Shown here in pieces: positions 5,360 to 19,663 of a stretch of DNA of 64,000 bases. The translations under genes and the position numbers were made by a program. The notes under the pieces were generated by a model, which saw only the letters and a list, made by a program, of their open reading frames with translations, was not told the origin of the DNA and searched no databases. This DNA comes from Fimbriiglobus ruber (GTDB taxonomy: Bacteria; Planctomycetota; Planctomycetia; Gemmatales; Gemmataceae), in assembly GCF_002197845.1 (NCBI RefSeq), contig NZ_NIDE01000004.1, positions 1,054,001 to 1,118,000 of the forward strand, read 5' to 3'. Positions within the stretch are counted from its first letter, which is position 1, and every line of letters starts with the position of its first letter.

Positions 5360-6325
5360 TCACGGCGTTTTGCCCGGCACGTGCGTGACGGATATCAACT
5401 CCCGCAAAAACGCCTCCAACAACTCGTTCGCCACCGGCGAAGTCAAACAAACCGCGTGCAGCCGGTTGGCCGGCCGGAGGGTTTCGGCCAGCGGGCGGAC
5501 TTTCACGTCCGCGCCCGCCAGGGCCGCGACCGAACGCGGAACCAGCCCGACGCCGAACCCGGCCAGCACGTAGTCCAACAACACCCGCCACCCACCGACT
5601 TCGATCGCCACCACGGGCGGCACGGCCGGCGCGTGCCGCCGCACCCGCTCGTCCCACTGTTTCCGAATCGCGGAATCGGCCATCGGCAGGACCAGCGGCC
5701 AGTCGGCCAATTCTTCGAGGCCGATCGGTTGATTCGCGCCCGCGAACGCCCGCGCCCAAGGCGACTGGATCCCGCACGCCAGAACCAGCGTATCGTCCCC
5801 CAGACTCTCGACCCGGACCTCGCACCGGGCGATTTCGTGGATCGCCACGGGCGGGTACGTGACGAGGGCCAGATCGTACGTCCCGTTCGCGATCCCTTCG
5901 ATCCGCTGCCGGCCCCGGACGACGGCGACCTTGAGGACCGCGTCCGGGTGGCGGAGCCGGAGCGCGGCCGCCGCGGCCAACACGACCCCGCCCGCCGCCC
6001 CCTGCCCGCACGCGACGGTCAGTCCCGCCGTTCGTTCGGCTGCCGCGGTCGTCGTGAACTGGTGCCACCGCTCGACCTGCTCGGTCACCGCCGGGAGCAG
6101 CGTCCGGCCTTCGTCAGTCAGGTAAAACCGCTTGCCCCGCTTCTCCAGCCACGGCCGCGGCAGGTGCGGCGGCGTGGGGCGGACCAGCGGGCGGATCCGC
6201 TTCGACACGCTCGCCTCGTTCAGCCCGAGTTCGCGGGCGGTGGCCGTGACCGACCCGTTCAACCGGACGAGGACCACAAACGTGCGGCAGAGTTCGGGCG
6301 TGAGCGGCGTCGGGGGTGGCTGCAT
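5360..6325 (-). CDS. LysR-family transcriptional regulator
   Basis: 321 residues: an N-terminal winged helix-turn-helix (TPELCRTFVVLVRLNGSVTA, then TARELGLNEASVSKRIRPL) followed by a periplasmic-binding-protein-like effector domain (LTVACGQGAAGGVVLAAAAA; YDLALVTYPP; LPMADSAIRKQW; VLAGFGVGLVPRSVAAL). ATG 6325 places the DNA-binding domain at the very N-terminus, while an in-frame ATG at 6376 would add 17 weakly conserved residues. It is transcribed divergently from the NUDIX-like gene at 6419 across a gap of about 93 bp, so it may control the island to its right as LysR regulators often do. The effector is unknown. Confidence 0.88.
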   Translation of the reverse strand: MQPPPTPLTPELCRTFVVLVRLNGSVTATARELGLNEASVSKRIRPLVRPTPPHLPRPWLEKRGKRFYLTDEGRTLLPAVTEQVERWHQFTTTAAAERTAGLTVACGQGAAGGVVLAAAAALRLRHPDAVLKVAVVRGRQRIEGIANGTYDLALVTYPPVAIHEIARCEVRVESLGDDTLVLACGIQSPWARAFAGANQPIGLEELADWPLVLPMADSAIRKQWDERVRRHAPAVPPVVAIEVGGWRVLLDYVLAGFGVGLVPRSVAALAGADVKVRPLAETLRPANRLHAVCLTSPVANELLEAFLRELISVTHVPGKTP

Positions 6326-6418
6326 GATGGTCCCGGATGTTGCCGTCCGGTTGACGAAACGCGGCCGGTCGGGCAACTGACCAGCTTTCGCGGACAGAAT
6401 ATCAGACCGTCTCGTAAC

Positions 6419-6952
6419 ATGAATGAGGAGAACGATAAATCTGGCCCCGCAACGCCTAACCCCGGACCCGCCATGTCGCTCCCGTACCCGGTCATCGAAG
6501 TCGCGGTGGTGTTGATTACCGACCCCCGCGGCGAACGGCTCCTGGCCGATTACAACCCCGATTGGGGCGGCTTCACCTTACCCATGACGAAGCGGCGCAA
6601 CCCGGGCCACGCGGACGAACCCTGGGCGCAAGAGGCGGAATCGCCGCTCGCCGCCGCGACCCGGGCGGCGGTCGAAGTCCTCGGGCGGCCGCTGCCGCCC
6701 GACCGGCTCCCGGTCCCTTTGCCGTTTGAACTGCCGCCGTGGGAAGTCAGCCTCCGGGACGGCGGCTGGAAGCGGTACACCCGGTGGCCCTTCGCGCTGG
6801 TGGCGGACGGCACCCCGCACCCGCTCCCGGGACACGTCGCGTTGTGGCTCACCCCGGCCGAGTTCGAGAAGTACGAACCGATTTCCCCGACCGTCAGCCA
6901 GATACTGGGGGCAATCCCGTTCGTAGACGTGAAGAAAGCCTTGCGGCTGTGA
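6419..6952 (+). CDS. NUDIX-like protein with degenerate Nudix box
   Basis: 177 residues (or 159 from ATG 6473). The core VIEVAVVLITDPRGERLLAD, then WGGFTLPMTKRR, then LAAATRAAVEVLGRPLPPDR follows the layout of a NUDIX hydrolase: strand, G-loop, W..F.LP, then the helix normally reading REUXEEXG. Here that helix reads RAAVEVLG, so two of the metal-binding glutamates are missing and hydrolysis is doubtful. It is first in a plus-strand run of five genes and lies 75 bp before the kinase-like gene. A ligand-binding role in a nucleotide-signalling system is an inference. No Shine-Dalgarno clearly decides between the two starts. Confidence 0.6.
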   Translation: MNEENDKSGPATPNPGPAMSLPYPVIEVAVVLITDPRGERLLADYNPDWGGFTLPMTKRRNPGHADEPWAQEAESPLAAATRAAVEVLGRPLPPDRLPVPLPFELPPWEVSLRDGGWKRYTRWPFALVADGTPHPLPGHVALWLTPAEFEKYEPISPTVSQILGAIPFVDVKKALRL

Positions 6953-7027: not shown

Positions 7028-9167
7028 ATGCCAGTCTATTGGTTGATCGCCGCGTCCGAGAACCTGCGGGCGGCGGTCTACGGCGACACGATCCACGACC
7101 CGAAGGCTTTCACCGCCCTGCGAACTCGCATCGACGGCGTTTTGGCCAAGGTCTTCCCCGGGCAGGTGGTGATCGTCCGCGACCGGCTGTCCGGCTACCG
7201 GCCGTTCGACGGACTCGCCATCCTGCTCGTCGAAGTCCAGCCGGACGCCACTTCGGTCCCCGTCCCCTCCGGACTGTTCCCCTCCCCCGGCACCTTCATC
7301 GTCAAGGTCGCCTTTGACGGCATGGCAGGCGAACTCCATTCGGAACTGCGGGCCTGGGACACCTCCCGCCCCGCGCACCTGCGGAGCGACAGCGTGTTCG
7401 TCTCGCTCGACCCGTATCCGTCGCGGGAGTCCGGCCGGCCGCCTGAAGCCCTGGTGTACGGGGACGCGTCGGCCGTACTCGGCCAGAAAAACCCACTGAG
7501 CCTGGAAGACGCCGTAATCCGGGCGTGCCGGTTCGGTCAGCCGCGGCCGGAATCGATCGGCCGGCTACTCCGCACCCTGTACGAGCGGTTAGAAACGCAC
7601 TTTTACCCCTGTTCGGTGCCGGTCCCGCCGACCGAATACTTGGCACCAACGGCCCGCCCGCGGTTGACGGACCTCCTCCTCCCCTGGCGGGAGCCGTCGG
7701 GCTCCGACCGGTTCGCCGCCGCGCCGCCGATCAAATCGGGGTCGCACGACGAGGATCTCCGCCAAATCCGCCGCGAGACGCTGGCATTATTGGCGGACGA
7801 CCACGCGGCCTTCGCCGACCCGTTCGACTTCCTGACCGGCGCGTGGGAGGTGCCGGGCCTCGCGCCGGTCGTCCTCCGGGGATTCTCGCACGGCGACCTC
7901 CACGGTCGCAACGTCCAGGTGGCGGTCGTGGCCGACGACGCCGACCACTGCGCGGTCTTCGACTACGAGAAAATGCGGGGGACAACTTCCTGGCGTGGGA
8001 CTTCATCAAAATGGAAGTCGAGCTGGCCGTCCGGCTGCTCGCGGCTCAGGGCGCCGCGGCCATGCCGGCGTTCGTCCGCCAGGCGCTCACGTTCTGGCAG
8101 TGCGTGGCCGCCGGGATCGACGAGTTCGACCGGCACGCGGCCGTCGACTCGTGCAACCCGGACGCCGGCCTGCTTTCCCCACTGGACCCCCAGTTGGCCG
8201 CGCGGGTGAAAGCACTGCCAGCCTCGCTCGCCCAGCTGGCGGCCAGGCTCGTCGACCTGCGGCGGATCGCCCACCGGCACCTCGGGGCCCTCCGCGAGCG
8301 CGGATTCGACTGGCTGGAGGAGTACGACTTCTTGCTCGCCTGGTACGCCGGCCGGGCGGCCCTGTACCCGAACTACGAGCCGCGGATGACGGCCGCCGCC
8401 ATCGTCGCGGCTGGGGTGAGCGCCCGGCGCCTGATCCGCCCGCCCGCCACCCCGCCGACCCCGACCCGGGCTCCAGGGGAAACGAGCTACCGCCCACGCT
8501 TCCTCCTCGCCCGCGGTCTCGCCCGCGGCGGGGACGCGGCCCGATTGGCCGACGGCCTTCGTCTCCTACAAAACCTGCGGGCGGACTACCCGCACGCCCT
8601 CGAAATCGAAGAGGAGTTGGCCCTCGGTTACATCGAGCGAGCGGACTTCCCGGCGGCCGAGGAGCTGCTCCACCAGATCGAGGCCCGCTACCGGCACACA
8701 ACGGCCGAGACGCCGGCCCGCCTCGGCGCGCTCTGGAAAAAGCGGGCGGCGGCAGTCGCGCCGGCCGACCGGGTGGCCCTGCGGCGGGCGCTCGATTGTT
8801 ACCGCCGGGCCGAGGCGATCCGCGGGGACCACTTCCCGGCGATCAACGTCGCCAGCCTGCAATACTTACTCGGGGAACGGGCGGCGGCCGTCGAGCAGGC
8901 CGAGCGCGTCCTCGGTTTGCTCGACGCGGCCGACCCGCCGCCCGACGGCTTCTGGCCCCACGCGACCCGGGGGAAGCCCTCCTGCTCACCGGCGGCGACC
9001 CGGCCGAAGCCGTGTCGTGCTACCGGCGGGCGGTCGCCGACCGGGGTTGCACCCCGCGGGACCGCGCGAGTATGCGGTGGCAGCTCGAACTGATCCGCCC
9101 GCTGTTCGACCCGCCTGTTCGCGACGCCTTGACGGACGATACATTAAATGGCCTGTTCGGAACCTGA
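7028..9167 (+). CDS. Kinase-fold (APH-like) protein with C-terminal TPR region, two apparent frameshifts
   Basis: With one base restored at each of two G5 runs (7977-7981 and 8969-8973) the gene gives a continuous 713-residue protein ending at 9167. Residues about 290-330 contain RGFSHGDLHGRNVQV and, about 25 residues later, FDYEKM, which match the catalytic loop (HGDLHxxN) and metal-binding segment of aminoglycoside phosphotransferase/protein-kinase folds. The DNFLAWDFIKMEVELA segment follows. The last third is helical and TPR-like (EIEEELALGYIERADFPAAE; ALDCYRRAEAIRGDHFPAIN). The N-terminal 280 residues are unfamiliar. The next gene follows after 15 bp, so co-transcription is likely. Similar kinase-like domains occur as accessory parts of STAND-type conflict systems. 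The substrate is unknown. Confidence 0.65.
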
Positions 9168-9622: not shown

Positions 9623-9751
9623 CAGCTCGGGCAAGCGTGAAAACCGTATTCCGAAGCAGACAAGTCTTTTTGAATGCGCCCGGGCCAAATAATCAGTAAA
9701 GTGTCAGCACCTTCGACAGTTCCGTCGGCATCTTGTCTGAGGGATTCGCCC

Positions 9752-12700
9752 GTGAGCCTGGATCAGACCGAATACGAACTCTTCGTCTCCTACGCCCGGA
9801 AGGACAACCGGCCCATACCGGAAACGTTCCCGCACGGCTGGGTGGTGGCGCTCAAGGATTTCATCCTGGCCGACCACCGGCAGTATTCGCCCGCCCCACT
9901 TCGCGTCTTCTTCGACACGGACGAAATCCGCGACATGGACGACTGGCGGAACCGCATCCTGGGGGCGCTGCGGCGGTCCAAGGTGATGCTGATCTGCCTG
10001 TCGCCGAATTATTTCGCCAGCCAGCCCTGCCGCTGGGAGTGGGAGGAATACCAGGCGCGGCAGCACCACAAGCTGATGGGGTCCGATTCGCACGCGACCG
10101 TCTATTTCGTCGAGGTGCCCGGAACGAACGAGCAGGAGAACGCCCGCCGGCTCGACGCGTTGATGGAAAAGAACTTTACCGACCTCCGGCCGTGGTTCCC
10201 GGCCGGCGCGGCGGCCATGCAGGAGGAGGCCGTCCGCCAGCGACTGGCGGTACTGGGCCAGAGTCTCTGGGAGCGGATCGACCGCGCCCGCCGCGCCCTC
10301 ACCGTACCCGGCAACGTGCGGGGCATGACGCCGTACTTCGTCGGCCGGAACCGCGAACTCGCCGACCTGCACCGGCTCGTGGGTGTCGGCAAGATCGGTC
10401 TCGTCACTGCGGTCCACGGCCTCGGGGGACAGGGGAAGACCGAACTCGCCGTCGCCTACGCACGGAGCTACGCCGATAGTTACAACGTGGGCTTGTGGTG
10501 GCTGCCGGCGGAAGGAAAGAAGGATCTGCTGCCGCTGCTTGGCGAACTCGCCTGGGTGCCCGAGTTCGGCTACACGCCTTCCGAGGCCGAACGGAACGAC
10601 GGGGAGAAACTCGGCCGCGCCGTCCTGCTCGAACTTCATCGGCGAGCCGAGGCCGCCCGGGAAAGAGACCCCGCGAAGGCGCCGGCCGCTTTAATTTTGC
10701 TGGACAACGTCTCCGAACCCACACTCCTCGCATCAACACAACTTTCGCGGTTGCGGAAGGCGGACTGGCTCCGTGTCATCGCCACCACCCGCCTCGACCC
10801 CCGACCACTCGACCCTGTCGGCAAAGCCCTCGGTCAAGTGCTGGTCGATTCGCTCGACCCGGACACTGCTCTGTGGCTCATCCGGGAACACCTGCCCGGC
10901 GAATCGTTCCGGACACCCCGGGACGAGGCCGACGCCCGCGAGATCGTCCGCGAACTCGGCGGGTTCACTCTGGCCGTCGAGCAGGTGGCGGTCTTTCTCG
11001 GGGTCAATCCGGAAGTGACACCGGGCGATTACCTCGCCCGGTTGCGTGCCGAGGGTCTGCCCAGCACTGACGCCCTGGTGAATGCTGACACTGCGGGGCA
11101 GATCGAACACCAGCAGAAGCAGCTGCGTCCGATTCTGGAATCGATGCTGGCGCAGCTGCCGGCCGCCGGGCGAACGCTCCTGGGTTTTGCGTCCTTCCTC
11201 CCCCCGGACCTGGTCCCCTGGCCGTGGCTGCGGGAACTTACCTGTCAGCGACACCCCGAGATTGCGGAGACAAAGCCCGGCTATCCCGATCCGTGGGTGA
11301 CGCTGCGCCGCCAGGTCGAGGGACTTCGCTTCCTCACCGGCTCGATCGAAAGCGAATTCGCCCGGATGCACCGACTCATCGGCGCCCACCTACGAGATGA
11401 AATCGACGAAACCCTTGACAGCGAACTCCGCGCGTTCGTGGCCCGACGATCAGACCAGATTTACCAGGAGCCCTACGCTCCCGCGGAATGGGAGTTGAGT
11501 GCCATCCTCGTAGCGGTTCCCCATCTTCTGCAAGCGCGAGCAGATCGTGGGCTAGCCATAGACGCGATGTTCCTCTCAGACAAGGTTCTCGCTTACCGTG
11601 ACATCCCAGCGGCTTTTGCCCTTTTGCGTACGACCCGTTCGACAATCGAACAACTGGCCCAGGCCGACCCGACCAACGCCCAGATGCAGCGGGACCTGTC
11701 GATCTCGTTCGAACGGCTGGGGGACGTGAGCGTGGCGGCCGGGACCTGGCCGCCGCCCGCGGGTACTTCGCCGACGGACTCCGGATTCGCAACAACTGGC
11801 CCAGGCCGACCCGACCAACGCCCAGATGCAGCGGGACCTGTCGATCTCGTTCGACCGCTTGGGGGCGTGAGCGTGGCGGCCGGGACCTGGCCGCCGCCCG
11901 CGGGTACTTCGCCGACGGACTCCGGATTCGTCAACAACTGGCCCAGGCCGACCCGACCAACGCCCAGATGCAGCGGGACCTGTCGATCTCGTTCGACAAG
12001 TTGGGGGACGTGAGCGTGGCGGCCGGCGACCTGTCCGCCGCCCGCGGGTACTTCGCCGACGGACTCCGGATCGCCCGGCAACTGGCCCAGGCCGACCCGA
12101 CCAACGCCCAGATGCAGCGGGACCTGTCGATCTCGTTCAACAAGCTGGGGGACGTGAGCGTGGCGGGCGGCGACCTGTCCGCCGCCCGCGGGTACTTCGC
12201 CGACGGACTCCGGATCGCCCGGCAACTGGCCCAGGCCGACCCGACCAACGCCCAGATGCAGCGGGACCTGTCGATCTCGTTCAACAAGCTGGGGGACGTG
12301 AGCGTGGCGGCCGGCGACCTGTCCGCCGCCCGCGGGTACTTCGCCGACGGACTCCGGATTCGGCAACAACTGGCCCAGGCCGACCCGACCAACGCCCAGA
12401 TGCAGCGGGACCTGTCGATCTCGTTCGACCGCTTGGGGGGCGTGAGCGTGGCGGCCGGGGACCTGGCCGCCGCCCGCGGGTACTTCGCCGACGGACTCCG
12501 GATTCGGCAACAACTGGCCCAGGCCGACCCGACCAACGCCCAGATGCAGCGGGACCTGTCGATCTCGTACGAACGACTGGGGGACGTGAGCGTGGCGGGC
12601 GGCGACCTGTCCGCCGCCCGCGGGTACTTCGCCGACGGACTCCGGATCGCCCGCCAACTGGCCCAGGCCGACCCGACCAACGCCCAGATGCAGCGGGATC

Positions 12701-13452
12701 TGTCGATCTCGTTCGACCGCTTGGGGGGCGTGAGCGTGGCGGCCGGGGACCTGGCCGCCGCCCGCGGGTACTTCGCCGACGGACTCCGGATTCGTCAACA
12801 ACTGGCCCAGGCCGACCCGACCAACGCCCAGATGCAGCGGGACCTGTCGATCTCGTTCGACAAGTTGGGGGACGTGAGCGTGGCGGCCGGCGACCTGTCC
12901 GCCGCCCGCGGGTACTTCGCCGACGGACTCCGGATCGCCCGGCAACTGGCCCAGGCCGACCCGACCAACGCCCAGATGCAGCGGGACCTGTCGATCTCGT
13001 TCAACAAGCTGGGGGACGTGAGCGTGGCGGCCGGCGACCTGTCCGCCGCCCGCGGGTACTTCGCCGACGGACTCCGGATTCGTCAACAACTGGCCCAGGC
13101 CGACCCGACCAACGCCCAGATGCAGCGGGACCTGTCGATCTCGTACGAACGACTGGGGGACGTGAGCGTGGCGGGCGGCGACCTGTCCGCCGCCCGCGGG
13201 TACTTCGCCGACGGACTCCGGATCGCCCGCCAACTGGCCCAGGCCGACCCGACCAACGCCCAGATGCAGCGGGACATCGCGGTTTCCTATTCCAAACTGG
13301 CGAACCTTTGCGAAAAAGCTGGCGAACCCGAGGCGAACGAGCACTGGCGAGCTTGCCTGGCGGTGTTCGACCGGATGATCGCGGCCGGTTTGCACGTATC
13401 GCCGCAAGACCTTGGCGTTATCGACTGGCTCCGCCGCAAACTCGGTGGTTAG
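9752..13452 (+). CDS. TIR - NB-ARC - TPR (NLR-like STAND) protein, frameshifted within its repeats
   Basis: N-terminal TIR (residues about 5-140): YELFVSYARKD, LRVFFDTDEIRDMDDW, MLICLSPNYFASQPCRWEWE with a glutamate where TIR NADases carry the catalytic one. Then an NB-ARC ATPase (about 190-480): TPYFVGRNREL, Walker A GLGGQGKTELAVAYA, Walker B AALILLDNV, sensor-like RVIATTRLDP, GGFTLAVEQVA. From about residue 633 the TPR part holds twelve 48-residue units (QLAQADPTNAQMQRDLSISF type). Units 1 and 2 contain four one-base losses relative to sister units (11741-11743, 11788-11790, 11861-11865, 11882-11884). Restoring them gives 1234 residues. GTG 9752 is chosen because GAGGG precedes it; an upstream ATG at 9674 has no such site. 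The probable role is regulated NAD-consuming defence. Confidence 0.85.
11651..13290 (+). repeat. Tandem 144-nt repeats (48-residue TPR units)
   Basis: The conserved block ATGCAGCGGGA recurs exactly every 144 bases at 11968, 12112, 12256, 12400, 12544, 12688, 12832, 12976, 13120 and 13264, with two more units before that whose spacing is disturbed by small deletions. The units are almost identical in DNA apart from a few alternating positions (DRLGGV, DKLGDV, NKLGDV or ERLGDV; IAR or IRQ). The order DRLGGV-DKLGDV-NKLGDV appears twice (units 2-4 and 8-10), which indicates higher-order duplication. Such identity implies recent expansion or gene conversion. Confidence 0.95.
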
Positions 13453-13565: not shown

Positions 13566-15605
13566 ATGAAATCCGTTTCCGAGCGACCGGCTCAGGCCGA
13601 ACCCAACCGGCGCGCCGCAATCAAAAAGTGGGTCTCTCGCCACCTGACGGGGATCACGTTGGTGCTGACGATCGTGACGGTATTGCTGTTGGGCGGAGGC
13701 ATCATTTGGGATGACAAGCTATCCACCGATTGCCAGTGTCTTATTTGGCCGAAGTTCGACCAGTTGAGTAGTGCAATCTACGAGACAACCCAGGTGTTTC
13801 TTTTGAACATGGCGCCACGAGCCGGGGCCAATTACGCGATCACTCTGGGGCGATTGTGTGCGGTGGTTTTGTTCGGGCTCCTCAGTTATCAGATCATTCA
13901 AAAATACTTCGGCGAGTGGCTGGATTACCTGAAGCTACGCATACTGTCCAGGCGGGGCGGACACCACATCGTCTGCGGACTGGGCCGCGTCGGTTGGCCG
14001 ATCGTGAAACAATTGCGCGAGGCGGGGGAACGGGTTGTGGTCATCGAACGCAGCCCGTTCAACGAACAGATCGACGACGCCAAGCGCCTCGGGGCTATCG
14101 TCCTTCACGGCGACGCGACCGAGGAAGAACGACTCCACGCCGCGATGCTGCCGAAAGCCCGCGCCCTCTATGTCGTCACGGGCAGTGACGAGGAAAACAT
14201 CGAAACCGTGGTCGACGCCCAGACGATCCTCGAAAAGGACGGGAACAAGGACGCCGAATTCAAGTGTTACATCCACCTCCTCAACCCGGCACTCGGGGAC
14301 GTTCTGAGTGACACCCTGAAAGAGCCGGGGCGGGCCGGCCACCCGTTCGACATCCAGACGTTCAACGTCGCCCGGAATTCCACCCGGCAGATCATCGTCG
14401 AGGAACTGTCTCGGGTCCGCCCGAGGAAGCCGGACGAGGTCGCGCTCTACGTCCTGATCGGCGCCGGTCCGATGGTCCGGGTGATCGCGTCCCACCTGGC
14501 CGAACTCGCCCACTTCGAGAACGACAAGCGCTCCCGCTTGCTCATCGTCACGGAAAAACCCAAAAAGGCGGCGGACGCCCTCCTCAGCCGGCACGGGCAA
14601 TTCTCCCCCCGCCGCGTAGTCAAGTCCTGGGCGGACATCCGGTTCGACCCGGATGCCGATCACTGGGGGTCCAAGAAACTCCGCCCCGAGCCGAACTATC
14701 AGGTCGACGCCCCGGAGGGCATCGAGTTCGCCTGTCAGGCGGTCTTCACGCCCGCCCCGCACGCGATGAACGACCGGGAGTTTCTGCACGCCCTTGACCG
14801 CCTGACGACGGAACCGGGGGTCCGGCCGGCGATCATTTTCTGCACGGAAGCCGACCAAGACAACTACGGCCAAGCCGAGCAACTGAACACGAACTTGCGG
14901 CTCCACTGCGGCGTCAAGGACAAGGACAAGGACAAGGACAAGGACAAGGACAAGGACAAGGACAAGGACAAGGACAAGGACAAAGACGACCTGCCCATCT
15001 TCGTCTGGCTCCCCCGGCAGGAGCCGCTCAAGCGTTTGCTGAACAAGCGAAAGAAAAACATCCGCCCGTTCGGCTCCTGTCACGACGAACTGATTTTGGA
15101 AAAGCTTCTCGACCCGGTCGAGGACCGGATCGCCGAAGAGATCATGGTCGATCACTACAAACGAGCCAACCCGGCCAAGAGCGAGCAAGAGGCCCGCGAC
15201 GCGTGGAAATTGCAGAAGGAAGGTGAGCGGTATTCCAACCGCATGGCGGCCATCCATTTCCAGGTCAAGCTCGCCTGCTGTGATTTGGAACTGGTGCCCA
15301 AGGAAAAAGGCTCGAACGATTTCAGCCCGATCCTTGCGAAGATCGGAACGCTCGCCCGCATGGAGCACAACCGTTGGATCGCCGAGCGCCTCATGGCGAA
15401 CTGGAGTTACGGCCCCCGCAGCGATTCGCCGCCCCGCCGGACCCAACTTTGTACCTGGGACATATTGAAGGGCAACAATGATCTGAAAGAGGAATTGAAC
15501 AAAGACTTTGATCAAATCCAAACCATACTCAAGCACCTCGATGATCTCGGATACCGCGTCAGAAAAATCGACCCCACCCGGCCGCGCTGTCAGGATGACG
15601 CGTGA
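13566..15605 (+). CDS. Membrane protein with TrkA-N (RCK-like) domain and C-terminal RyR domain
   Basis: 679 residues. Two membrane helices lie near the N-terminus (LVLTIVTVLLLGGGIIW about 30-46; ITLGRLCAVVLFGLLSYQII about 93-112). A Rossmann TrkA-N/RCK domain follows (HHIVCGLGRVGWPIVKQL, ERVVVIERSP, LGAIVLHGDATEEERL, ALYVVTGSDEENI), with a second Rossmann-like half (ALYVLIGAGPMVRVIASHLA). The segment between the helices lacks the TxGYG selectivity filter of potassium channels. The C-terminus is a RyR domain (LARMEHNRWIAERLMANWSY ... LDDLGYRV). A Lys-Asp repeat of 12 pairs sits around residue 451. The gene starts 113 bp after the TIR gene. Nucleotide- or dinucleotide-gated membrane effector is an inference. 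Confidence 0.85.
   Translation: MKSVSERPAQAEPNRRAAIKKWVSRHLTGITLVLTIVTVLLLGGGIIWDDKLSTDCQCLIWPKFDQLSSAIYETTQVFLLNMAPRAGANYAITLGRLCAVVLFGLLSYQIIQKYFGEWLDYLKLRILSRRGGHHIVCGLGRVGWPIVKQLREAGERVVVIERSPFNEQIDDAKRLGAIVLHGDATEEERLHAAMLPKARALYVVTGSDEENIETVVDAQTILEKDGNKDAEFKCYIHLLNPALGDVLSDTLKEPGRAGHPFDIQTFNVARNSTRQIIVEELSRVRPRKPDEVALYVLIGAGPMVRVIASHLAELAHFENDKRSRLLIVTEKPKKAADALLSRHGQFSPRRVVKSWADIRFDPDADHWGSKKLRPEPNYQVDAPEGIEFACQAVFTPAPHAMNDREFLHALDRLTTEPGVRPAIIFCTEADQDNYGQAEQLNTNLRLHCGVKDKDKDKDKDKDKDKDKDKDKDKDDLPIFVWLPRQEPLKRLLNKRKKNIRPFGSCHDELILEKLLDPVEDRIAEEIMVDHYKRANPAKSEQEARDAWKLQKEGERYSNRMAAIHFQVKLACCDLELVPKEKGSNDFSPILAKIGTLARMEHNRWIAERLMANWSYGPRSDSPPRRTQLCTWDILKGNNDLKEELNKDFDQIQTILKHLDDLGYRVRKIDPTRPRCQDDA
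14916..14987 (+). repeat. Hexanucleotide (AAGGAC) microsatellite encoding (Lys-Asp)12
   Basis: Eleven perfect AAGGAC units (14916-14981) followed by one AAAGAC encode twelve Lys-Asp pairs inside the TrkA-N/RyR protein. Because the unit is six bases, slippage changes linker length without shifting the frame. It lies between the second Rossmann-like half and the RyR-containing C-terminal part, so it could tune the distance between them. Confidence 0.97.
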
Positions 15606-15688: not shown

Positions 15689-18600
15689 CTACTTCACCGG
15701 AAGCGGGATGACCACCGCTTCGGACTCGGACTGGAACCGGGTCTTCGGGCCGCACCCGAGCAGCACGGCGCCGCTCGGCAGCAGGTCGAGCGAGTAAATT
15801 GGGCCGAACGGCAGTTCCTGGGCGGCCAACAGCTTGCCGTCTGCGACCGCCCACTCGGCGAGATAGCCCGCCCCGCGCGGGGCCGTGCCCACGGTGATGA
15901 GTTTGCTGCCGTCCGCGGTGAACTTCAGCGCGTGGACGAAGCCCGGGTGCGACGGTGCTGGCTGGCCCGGCGGCGGCGGGGGCAGGGTCGGGTTCGGGAA
16001 CTCGTGGACGAGGCGGCCGGTCGCCACATCCCACAACTTGACCAGCCGGTCGCTCGACCCGGACGCGAGATACTTGCCGTCCTTGTCGAACGCGAGACAG
16101 AAGACCTGGTCGCGGTGGCCGGGTTCTGGCGGCGCGTTCAGCCACCCGGCGCCGAGACTCCCGGCCAACGGACCCGCTTTCTGGATGACGAGTGGATCGG
16201 GCGGGATGCGGTCGGTGCCCGGCTTGATCTCGCGGACCATCTTCCCGTCGCCCGCGTCCCAGAATTTGATCGTCTTGTCGAAGCTACTGGTCACGATCTG
16301 CTTGCCGTCCAAAGTCCACGCGACGGCGTAAATCGGATTCGGTTGGGGCAGGATGTGGGCGTTGATCGTTTTCGTCGCCGTCCCCTTCGCCACGTCCCAG
16401 ACGCGGAGAATCCCGTCGTGGCAGCCGGTCGCGAGCAACCCGCCGGTCTTGTCGAACGCGACGGCGTCGACCAGATTCGGGTGCTGCAAGGTCTTCGCCG
16501 GCTGGTCGGCCGCGAACTTCCAGACACGGACTTGCTTGTCGTCGGCGCCGGTGACGATCGTCGTGCCGTCCGAGTTAAACGTGCCCGCGCGGACCGGGCC
16601 GGGGTGTGGGAAGTCTTGAACCGGCTTGCCGAATTCGGCCGGCAGCGGCTGCCCAGCCTCGAAGGCGATGCCCCACGCGACCACGCTGTTATTCGCGAGT
16701 ACGGTCGCCAGGGTCGGGTTGGTCGGGTGGAACGACAGATCCGTTACTTTGGCGCCCGTCTTGAACTTCCCGACGACCGAGCCGTCATTGAAGTTGAATA
16801 GTGTTACGCCCGGGTCGGCCCCGTGTGCAACGGCTACGAGTTGGCCGTTCTTGGATACGGCCACGGCTGTCACCGGCGCGTCGGCTTCGAGGGTCCGGTC
16901 CTTCGCATAGCTCCCCGCGTTCCAGAGCGTGACGCCCTTCCCGGTGCCGGCGGTGAGAACGTGCGACCCGCTCTGCACAACCGCGAGGGCGGCGCCGATG
17001 ACGGCCGGGTCGGTGATCGATTTGACGACCAACAGCGGGCTCGCGGTCACGGTCTTGTCCGCGCTCGCGGTGTAAAAGACCGGCTGTGCAGGGTGGAAAG
17101 CGACAGCCGTGACCGGCGCGGTGTGGGCGGCGAACTGGAGCGGTTGGCCTGTCGCGACGTCGTACACCCACGCCCGGTTGTCGGCCTGCCCGACGAGGAG
17201 CTTGGTCTTGTCGGGGCTGAACGACAGCGCGGTCACGTCGGTTGCGGTTGCAGGGAAGGGGACTTCCTTGCCGTCCGCCACGGTCCAGACTCTCACGACC
17301 TTGCCGGACGCCGCGGCGACGGCCGTCCCGTCGCGGCTGGCGGCCAACGCCGTCGCCGGTGCGGGGAGTGGGGCGAACGCCTTGACTTCCTTACCCTGGG
17401 TCGCGTCCCACACGCGGACGGTCTTGTCCGCGCCGGCGGTGATGAGATGGCCGGTCGCCGGGTTGATCGCGAGGCCGGTGACGCCAGCCGGATCCGCGAG
17501 GAGGGCCGAGGTAACAGCCAGATCGAACAGGCCGAGTTGCTTGTCGTCCCCGCCGACGGCAATCGTCTTGTTATCAGCGAGGATCGCCAGGCCGTGTACG
17601 GGAGCCGTCGGCTCGGCGACGGTTTGCAGGGTGCGGCCAGTGATCGCGTCGAGTACGCGCACCGAGCGGCCCGTCTTCCCGGCCACCGCGACAGCGATTC
17701 GCGCAGCCGTCGGCGACAGCGCCAGGGCTTCCGGCTCGCCAGCGAGCCCTGCCTCGAACACCGGCTTCGCGCCGGCGGTCAGGGGTGTGAGGAGCAGCTT
17801 CGCGCCCGCGGCCTCCGCCACGACCAGGGCGAGTTTCGTGCGATCAGCAGTGAAAGCCGCGAGCTTGATGGCCGCGGGAGTCAGAGCGATGGGCGCGTCC
17901 GCCTTTGCGGTGTCGATGGCCCACGTTCGTAATGACTTGTCCGCGCAAACGGTCAGGAGCTTTTTGCCGTCAGTGGTGAATGCTGCCGCCAGGACCGCTG
18001 CCGGGTGCGCGAGAACCTTGGGCTCCTGGGTCTTTTCCTTCTCCTTCGCGACCGCGACCGGGCGGAACTGGACCTCGCCCGTCGAGTAGACCACCGCGAA
18101 GCCGGCCCCGCCCGGTTGAGGGACGACGGCCGTCACGCCGACTTTCGGCCCGGCCGGGACGACGACGGTTTTCTTCCCGGACGCAACTTCCCAGACCAGC
18201 AGGCCGCCGGCGGCGTCGCCTGTGATGAGGTTGGCCCCAGCTTCCGCGATCGCCGTAACGGCTGCCTCGTGGCCGGGGAACTGTTTCGCGACAGCCCCGT
18301 CCTTGCAAATGCGGACGATCTTGTCCGCGCCGCCGGTGGCGATCTGCTTGCCGTCCGCGAGCGGAACCGCGACGAGTACACGGTCCGGGTGGACGGTCGG
18401 TTTGAGCGGGGCGACATTTGGCGTGGGTAGTGTCCAGTTCCGCACGTACCCGTCCGCGCCGGCGGTCACGACCTGTTGCGGTCCGGTCAGGATGAGTCCG
18501 GTTACTGCGCCGTCGTGCGCCGGCAGCGGGTCGCGGGGTTTGCCGTCCGCGCCCCAGAGAGTGAGCTTATCGTCCACCGTTCCCGCGGCGAAGCCCTGCC

Positions 18601-19531
18601 CGTTCGCCGCGGCCGCGACCACGCGCGGGTCGGCGGCGACCTTGCCTTCTTGCACTTTCGCGCCGGTGGCCGTGTTCGCGAGCCGGACAACTTTGTCCGC
18701 CCCGCCGGTCACGGCAAACCCGCCATCAGGTGACAGGCCGAGAGCGGTCACGCTCGCGGTATGCGGAGCCAATGGCTTGGGCGCGGCCGGTGCTTGCGCG
18801 GGCCAGAATTTGAGACTTCCGTCCGCCGACGCGGTCACAACAACGCCGCTCGCGGGGTTCACGGCGAGTCCGGTGATGTCGGCGGCCGACGCGCCGACGA
18901 CCGCCTGGGCCTCGCCCGTGGTCGCGTTCCAGTAGCGCAGGGTTTTGTCCGCCCCAGTCGTATAAACCGTGGCACCGTTGGGCGCGAACCCCAGCCCGAC
19001 GACGGCCCCCGAGTGTCCGGTGAGGTCCGGTCGGGCTTTCTTGTCGGCGACGGTCCAGAGCTTGACCACGCCGTTCGCCCCGCCCGCTGCGACGACGGTG
19101 CCGTCGGCCGAGACCCGCGTGGCCGTGACGCCAGCGGGGAAGTCCAGGGCGAACGAGGGTTTGCTCGACGGCACGTCCCAGAGCTTGACCACGTTGTCCG
19201 ACCCGCCGGACGCGAGTGTGTCGCCGGCCGGCGAGAAGGCGAGGCAGAGTACCTGATTTTGGTGGCCGTTCTTGCCGGCGAGAGTGCGGAGTTCTTTGCC
19301 GGTGGTCGGGTCCCAGAGCTTGATCGTCTTGTCGAAGCTGCCGGTGGCCGCGAATTTCCCGTCCGGGCTGACGGCGACGGTGTAAATCGGGTCGGTGTGG
19401 CCCTTCAAAATCACCAGCGGCTGGGGCGGTTGCGGGGGCTGGGCGGCGAGCCACCCGCAGCCGACCGCGAGCGCGATCGTGGCAAGTGTGGTCCGGCGGG
19501 GTATGCGCGGCATAAAATGTGAAGGTGTCAT
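15689..19531 (-). CDS. Large secreted WD40-repeat protein
   Basis: 1280 residues. A signal-like N-terminus (MPRIPRRTTLATIALAVGCG, then WLAAQPPQPP) is followed by many WD40 units from start to end, for example VVILKGHTDPIYTVAVSPDG-type blades and recurring GADKTVRVWD, GSFDKTIKLWD and GSSDRLVKLWD strands. The number of blades is enough for two or three beta-propellers. Gemmataceae encode many such proteins, some fused to kinases, but no catalytic domain is visible here. ATG 19531 is chosen because GGGAG lies upstream; an in-frame ATG at 19513 is also possible. A scaffold role in the periplasm or cell envelope is inferred. It ends against the hairpin at 15642-15681. Confidence 0.85.
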   Translation of the reverse strand: MTPSHFMPRIPRRTTLATIALAVGCGWLAAQPPQPPQPLVILKGHTDPIYTVAVSPDGKFAATGSFDKTIKLWDPTTGKELRTLAGKNGHQNQVLCLAFSPAGDTLASGGSDNVVKLWDVPSSKPSFALDFPAGVTATRVSADGTVVAAGGANGVVKLWTVADKKARPDLTGHSGAVVGLGFAPNGATVYTTGADKTLRYWNATTGEAQAVVGASAADITGLAVNPASGVVVTASADGSLKFWPAQAPAAPKPLAPHTASVTALGLSPDGGFAVTGGADKVVRLANTATGAKVQEGKVAADPRVVAAAANGQGFAAGTVDDKLTLWGADGKPRDPLPAHDGAVTGLILTGPQQVVTAGADGYVRNWTLPTPNVAPLKPTVHPDRVLVAVPLADGKQIATGGADKIVRICKDGAVAKQFPGHEAAVTAIAEAGANLITGDAAGGLLVWEVASGKKTVVVPAGPKVGVTAVVPQPGGAGFAVVYSTGEVQFRPVAVAKEKEKTQEPKVLAHPAAVLAAAFTTDGKKLLTVCADKSLRTWAIDTAKADAPIALTPAAIKLAAFTADRTKLALVVAEAAGAKLLLTPLTAGAKPVFEAGLAGEPEALALSPTAARIAVAVAGKTGRSVRVLDAITGRTLQTVAEPTAPVHGLAILADNKTIAVGGDDKQLGLFDLAVTSALLADPAGVTGLAINPATGHLITAGADKTVRVWDATQGKEVKAFAPLPAPATALAASRDGTAVAAASGKVVRVWTVADGKEVPFPATATDVTALSFSPDKTKLLVGQADNRAWVYDVATGQPLQFAAHTAPVTAVAFHPAQPVFYTASADKTVTASPLLVVKSITDPAVIGAALAVVQSGSHVLTAGTGKGVTLWNAGSYAKDRTLEADAPVTAVAVSKNGQLVAVAHGADPGVTLFNFNDGSVVGKFKTGAKVTDLSFHPTNPTLATVLANNSVVAWGIAFEAGQPLPAEFGKPVQDFPHPGPVRAGTFNSDGTTIVTGADDKQVRVWKFAADQPAKTLQHPNLVDAVAFDKTGGLLATGCHDGILRVWDVAKGTATKTINAHILPQPNPIYAVAWTLDGKQIVTSSFDKTIKFWDAGDGKMVREIKPGTDRIPPDPLVIQKAGPLAGSLGAGWLNAPPEPGHRDQVFCLAFDKDGKYLASGSSDRLVKLWDVATGRLVHEFPNPTLPPPPPGQPAPSHPGFVHALKFTADGSKLITVGTAPRGAGYLAEWAVADGKLLAAQELPFGPIYSLDLLPSGAVLLGCGPKTRFQSESEAVVIPLPVK

Positions 19532-19663
19532 TCGGTGATGCTCCCGGTGGGCGGGGAGTGGAATAGGTCGGGGTGGTGGGACGATCGTCGGCAGGTGTGG
19601 GCAGTTTCGCACGCCGGACCGGGTCCGTCAACGACGCAATGCTTCTTGGGAAGGTATCAAACG

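Follow-up and report, generated by a model that had tools for sequence, protein, structure and literature searches.

Gene content of the locus

We analyzed a tandem repeat array and its surroundings in the window, a 64,000-nt stretch of the Fimbriiglobus ruber genome. The genes at the locus are, in order, a LysR-type regulator on the minus strand, a NUDIX-like gene, a TCAD9-TPR-S gene, a gene for a stand-alone RyR domain, a TIR-NB-ARC-TPR gene whose sensor part is the array, and a gene for a membrane protein with two hydrophobic segments (2TM), a TrkA_N domain and an RyR-like domain (Table 1). An earlier reading from sequence alone had described the array but had neither the frame break in its first two units nor the RyR, TCAD9 and NUDIX-like surroundings. 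Next door, on the minus strand, lies a gene for a large WD40-repeat protein (15689-19612) whose repeats gave no Tandem Repeats Finder match and are not near-identical in DNA sequence, a local contrast to the array.

Table 1. Features of the receptor locus, with positions counted from the first nucleotide of the window
Feature	Position	Strand	Basis
LysR-type regulator	5360..6376	-	Gene and position shared with G053
NUDIX-like small protein, without Pfam match	6473..6952	+	By eye only
TCAD9 and TPR-S gene, frame-broken as deposited	7028..9167	+	Pfam, frame analysis
Stand-alone RyR-domain protein, 96 aa	9183..9473	+	Pfam RyR, RyR1 alignment
TIR-NB-ARC ORF, 779 aa in the deposited sequence, ending in repeat sequence read out of frame	9674..12013	+	ORF call, Pfam
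U1 and U2, 142 nt each, frame broken	11654..11937	+	Unit cutting at shared anchor
U3-U11, nine intact 144-nt (48-aa) TPR units	11938..13233	+	Tandem Repeats Finder and unit alignment
ORF with U3-U11 and C-terminal cap, 494 aa	11968..13452	+	ORF call, AlphaFold2
Partial twelfth unit (42 nt), after which the sequence diverges abruptly into the C-terminal cap	13234..13275	+	Unit alignment
Membrane protein with two hydrophobic segments, TrkA_N (RCK) and C-terminal RyR-like domain	13566..15605	+	Pfam

An array of near-identical TPR units

Tandem Repeats Finder placed the array at 11649-13275 with a period of 144, 11.3 copies, 93% matches and a score of 2760. Cutting at a shared anchor, we obtained 11 near-identical units starting from 11654 to 13090 and the beginning of another (11654-13275 in total). 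Pairs among U1-U11 differ by 0 to 14 nt, whereas the sequence immediately upstream differs from them by about 75 nt, and the unit matches nowhere else in the 12.36-Mb genome. The sequence-only reading had counted twelve nearly identical 144-nt units; the near-identity stands, but the count is too strong, because the twelfth unit matches over 42 nt only. U1 and U2 are 142 nt long against the full 144 nt of the nine others.

The unit types follow the order A B C D E B F B C E F, with U3 identical to U9, U7 identical to U11, and U5 differing from U10 by 1 nt. An exact 285-nt repeat with copies 864 nt apart corresponds to the B-C pair, which occurs twice and explains the former impression that units 2-4 resemble units 8-10 as a larger duplicated block; U4 and U10 differ by 6 nt. 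Since 41% of random unit orders give at least one repeated adjacency, we rejected a larger block duplication as not established, and a search of the unit order in the array gave no significant periodicity. The number of 11 could itself be an artifact of repeat collapse or expansion: a 1.6-kb near-identical array is longer than short reads, and short-read misassembly has been reported for such NLR arrays (PMC12222747). The assembly consists of only 20 contigs, however, the array is internal to one of 1.43 Mb, and its unit variants can be told apart; we consider a wrong count possible but rather unlikely.

The identification of the unit as a TPR was borne out by Pfam matches to TPR_10 and TPR_12 and by structural modeling, which had been proposed as a check. 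AlphaFold2 predicted the 494-aa ORF to form an all-helical TPR superhelix (pLDDT 94.3, pTM 0.82) with regular helix pairs of 20-21 residues, and the best Foldseek matches of the model were OGT, LGN/Pins and consensus TPR. Sequence searches of the PDB with the array and with the TIR-NB-ARC part gave zero matches. The 48-residue unit does exceed the usual 34-residue TPR, as had been pointed out, but it is an established variant, since we found it in Methylobacterium and Thauera plasmids, in a planctomycete (G139), and in TIR proteins of three loci or genomes (L022, L024 and G296), with a 47-residue form in a fourth (L023). As far as the citing article describes them, the TPR-like repeats of Marold et al. 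2015 (cited in PMC12222747) likewise combine a unit longer than 34 residues with high internal identity, their unit having 42 residues rather than 48.

Homogenization by recombination

The nine intact units have the same DNA sequence at 36 of their 48 codons, and variation at fourfold sites is restricted to 2 of 27; such silent-site identity points to recent shared origin or conversion beyond protein constraint alone. Segments have been shuffled between units, as shown by variable-site pairs that violate the four-gamete test (21 in one phase, 21-35 in the other phases). Homogenization of the array by recombination, through recent unequal recombination or gene conversion, is well supported by these patterns and agrees with the recent expansion previously proposed. 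With near-identity extending to silent sites and few variable positions, the array has the properties of NLRs with high internal conservation.

Long arrays more than 90% alike were found at only two of the sampled TIR loci, the array at 11654-13275 and an array in the same genome that we call C2. In the other sampled TIR-gene regions of this genome and its relatives, the repeats were 70-76% alike, apart from a 217-nt repeat (L124) and a 77-nt repeat (L110), each of 1.9 copies. C2 (L122:6705-8275) belongs to a second TIR-NB-ARC NLR and has 13 near-identical 120-nt TPR units (92%). Differences in G-run length put part of this array out of frame, and its ORF remains open because the total loss is six bases.

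Variation is limited to eight residues per unit (positions 8, 9, 10, 13, 18, 22, 35 and 36, with QRD as 1). Positions 9, 10, 35 and 36 vary also in two independent 48-aa arrays, one on a Methylobacterium plasmid (L089) and one in the planctomycete G139 (L064), and position 13 varies in one of the two. By standard TPR numbering, we equate positions 9 and 13 with positions 5 and 9 of helix A, which point to the concave side. It is possible that the variation diversifies ligand recognition. Positive selection on the units was unsupported (pN/pS among units 0.53). The absence of an excess of replacement changes would also fit an array that is homogenized yet frozen, its near-identity coming from one recent expansion and playing no part in diversifying recognition. 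The shuffled combinations of variant segments and the recurrence of four variable positions in the independent arrays argue against such an array, which we regard as plausible, if somewhat short of probable. We looked for the receptor gene in two same-genus genomes (86-87% complete, in 510-960 contigs) and found no copy; a search of viral contigs for the exact unit found none.

Frame break in the first two units

In the deposited sequence, the TIR-NB-ARC ORF and the repeat ORF are in different frames. U1 and U2 have each lost two single bases in comparison with the other units, and because of these losses the TIR-NB-ARC ORF stops within U3 and U3-U11 fall in another ORF. G runs account for three of the four losses, with G4 shortened to G3 in U1 as well as in U2 and G6 shortened to G5 in U2; the fourth is at G2 or T. 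The neighboring TCAD9-TPR-S gene has frame breaks at two G5 runs, one near 7975 and one near 8968, and in the relatives G027 and G053 the gene reads in a single frame across the first of these sites.

Such lesions could mark the receptor and TCAD9 genes as true pseudogenes, in which slippage in G runs cut the receptor short behind its first TPR and left the repeats to decay. Two adjacent genes carrying six 1-nt losses within 4 kb would be consistent with this, as would the losses of U1 and U2 at one common site, as if the unit had been copied after the mutation. Lesions of other kinds are absent, however, and the TIR-NB-ARC frame, the RyR gene and the TrkA_N gene are intact. In the C2 array, moreover, a shared G-run site is short by one or two bases in five units of the first half, and the last units have full length. 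As this array and the TCAD9 gene show similar G-run losses, sequencing or assembly error is likelier than pseudogenization. A codon-usage scan of sampled regions gave, in small numbers, 2.5 unexplained frame switches per 100 kb of coding sequence (including two copies of one repeated element) versus 0.8 and 0 in two related genomes, which again speaks against pseudogenization. Of the seven switches here, the two in the repeated element share a T6A4 site, and the other sampled ones sit near G5 runs; about 10% of 60-nt windows contain a G or C run of at least five. The two copies of the element (L035:1981 and L039:15205) possibly encode a transposase with programmed frameshifting.

A third explanation takes the G runs as contingency tracts whose slippage flips the receptor on and off between cells. 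The units do contain G4-G6 tracts, and unit lengths differ in two arrays of one genome, but the tracts are short for contingency loci, there is a single consensus sequence, and sequencing error would look alike; we consider phase variation very improbable. Pseudogenization is unlikely in our judgment, and G-run undercalling in the assembly is the probable cause of the break in U1-U2.

The TIR-NB-ARC receptor and its homologs

The TIR-NB-ARC ORF matched the Pfam domain TIR_2 with an E value of 9e-12, while NB-ARC (E value 0.0015) and AAA_16 remained below their cutoffs; in the relatives L022 and L023, the NB-ARC score exceeds the Pfam cutoff. Translation may actually begin downstream, at a GTG near 9752. 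In the TIR domain, the catalytic-type Glu 122 in SPNYFASQPCRWEW has the C-x-x-E context of TIR NADases, and a P-loop, GLGGQGKT, lies at residue 249; both motifs are common to the relatives. The P-loop NTPase lies between effector and repeat sensor, the arrangement of STAND/NLR proteins of the AP-ATPase clade. In a single polypeptide this order is interrupted by the deposited frame breaks in U1-U2 and uninterrupted in the closest complete relative (L023), which is one ORF. By its motifs and domain order, the protein is a predicted bacterial STAND/NLR immune receptor of the TIR-NB-ARC-TPR type, in line with its initial description as NLR-type.

Among the 95 family genomes searched, 5 gave matches to the TIR-NB-ARC part. 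Homologs with 47-48-residue TPRs are present in metagenome-assembled genomes (MAGs) of Deltaproteobacteria (56% identity; the contig ends within the repeat array), Actinomycetota (47%) and Thermoguttaceae (27%). A plasmid search with the receptor and TrkA_N proteins gave no match. In the Actinomycetota MAG (L023:6243-13346), two tandem TIR-NB-ARC-TPR genes flank a gene of the SLATT 2TM class, whose members are predicted signal-gated pores (PMC7159879).

RyR-domain genes around the receptor

The stand-alone RyR protein scored 123.5 bits against Pfam RyR (PF02026; gathering cutoff 27.4) and is clearly homologous to animal RyR1, with whose RyR repeat domains it aligns over its full length. Phage-encoded RyR proteins of the RyDEP type bind or cleave the TIR-made signal 2'/3'cADPR, and conserved RyDEP homologs may bind without cleaving (PMC13232231). 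Residues H32, W35, H57 and D74 of the stand-alone protein correspond, at exactly the same spacing, to the ligand-contacting and catalytic residues H75, W78, H100 and D117 of RyDEP, and six other Gemmataceae RyR proteins have all four residues at that spacing. Unlike RyDEP, the protein, a candidate cADPR binder, is host-encoded and lies beside a TIR receptor. The RyR-like domain of the TrkA_N protein scored 21 bits, below the PF02026 cutoff, and two of the four RyDEP residues are missing at those spacings. The protein is a candidate membrane effector; around its planctomycete homolog (G292), no TIR gene was seen in the flanks. Its gene contains a (CAAGGA)12 hexamer repeat at 14915-14987 that codes for a Lys-Asp tract, a possible length-variable linker.

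Parts of the neighborhood recur in relatives. In G053, the LysR, NUDIX-like, RyR and TCAD9-TPR-S genes occur together, with TIR-NB-ARC genes about 8 kb off on the same contig, and the NUDIX-like gene is kept near RyR in both G053 and G094. Among evaluable planctomycete RyR loci, a TIR domain lies within 10 kb in 4 of 10 against an expected 0.21 (P = 3e-5), and in 3 of 9 without the locus in the window (P = 7e-4), under a null that ignores the clustering of conflict genes; the other 6 of the 10 lack a TIR within that distance. RyR genes also adjoin cyclase, CHAT and TPR-S genes: in planctomycete G403 (L138:6483-8915), for example, a stand-alone RyR gene is immediately preceded by a CHAT-domain gene. 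In G296 (L136:7008-12168), an RyR-TPR-S-cyclase gene directly precedes a TIR gene with 48-residue TPRs at a distance of 73 nt, possibly a two-signal conflict system.

Proposed signaling

The gene context suggests an NLR with cADPR-to-RyR signaling. The TPR superhelix of the receptor would bind an invader-derived ligand, upon which the NB-ARC domain would, as in its family, exchange nucleotide and the receptor oligomerize. The TIR domain, with its catalytic motif, would then cleave NAD+ and so release a signal of the ADP-ribose type, perhaps a cADPR isomer, to be bound by the neighboring RyR domains. The stand-alone RyR protein may be a co-receptor, a brake or a sink, and the membrane effector that stops the infected cell may be the 2TM-TrkA_N-RyR-like protein. 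The specific proposal that the TIR makes a cADPR-type alarm read by both the stand-alone RyR and the 2TM-RCK RyR protein, as a prokaryotic counterpart of cADPR-to-RyR channel signaling, is tentative and less likely than not.

Many TIR effectors act through NAD+ depletion. The receptor may do the same, with the RyR genes as unrelated neighbors, part of a TPR-S/TCAD9 conflict cassette or acting as a signal sponge; RyR genes do adjoin genes for TPR-S proteins with no TIR present in G027 and in G020 (the latter on a short contig). That TIR-RyR proximity is above expectation even without the window, together with the adjacency in G296 and the full set of RyDEP residues, argues against mere neighborhood, which we see as a serious contender that falls a little short of being probable. 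Against the combined reading we counted the sub-cutoff scores of NB-ARC and of the RyR-like domain, the 6 of 10 RyR loci without TIR, the clustering of defense genes and the receptor gene broken as deposited. On balance, we lean slightly toward that combined reading: an NLR with a homogenized sensor, a TIR signal bound by RyR neighbors, and a frame break that is more likely a G-run undercall.

Relation to known systems

Several known systems share parts of this architecture. Bacterial AP-ATPase/NB-ARC-TPR proteins with an N-terminal TIR combine the same TIR, STAND NTPase and TPR, and the TCAD9 domain beside the receptor belongs to the same broad set of conflict systems (Kaur et al. 2020, PMC7159879). 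The present locus differs in having a near-identical array and RyR neighbors and no adjoining vWA-MoxR-VMAP partner. With Thoeris it shares a TIR enzyme and a neighbor protein that could respond to an ADPR-type signal; here, however, the TIR is fused to an NLR, the candidate receptor of the signal is an RyR domain, and there is no ThsA. Assignment to Thoeris proper (a SIR2/Macro-type ThsA effector with a ThsB TIR) was rejected, the three PADLOC-scanned proteins giving no Thoeris match. A weak match to the NCBIfam model ThcB4 was below cutoff, and the FxSxx-COOH system TPR protein (NF040586) was discarded at 91.7 bits against a curated cutoff of 300 bits.

The array also resembles the sensors of the fungal HNWD NLRs het-d and het-e, whose C-terminal sensors of about 11 near-identical repeats undergo concerted evolution with few variable codons and are error-prone in assembly (PMC12222747). 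The fungal sensors are WD40 beta-propellers for which allelic variation and diversifying selection have been demonstrated, whereas the present receptor is bacterial, carries a TIR and has a predicted TPR superhelix. The array gives fungal NLRs with homogenized sensor repeats a bacterial counterpart, and the evolution of such sensors by recombination can thus be studied in a bacterium.

The neighborhood matters more than the array. Direct action of cADPR on RyR domains has long been debated in animals. By pairing a TIR receptor with RyR proteins that have known cADPR-contacting residues, the locus would make this question testable with small soluble proteins.
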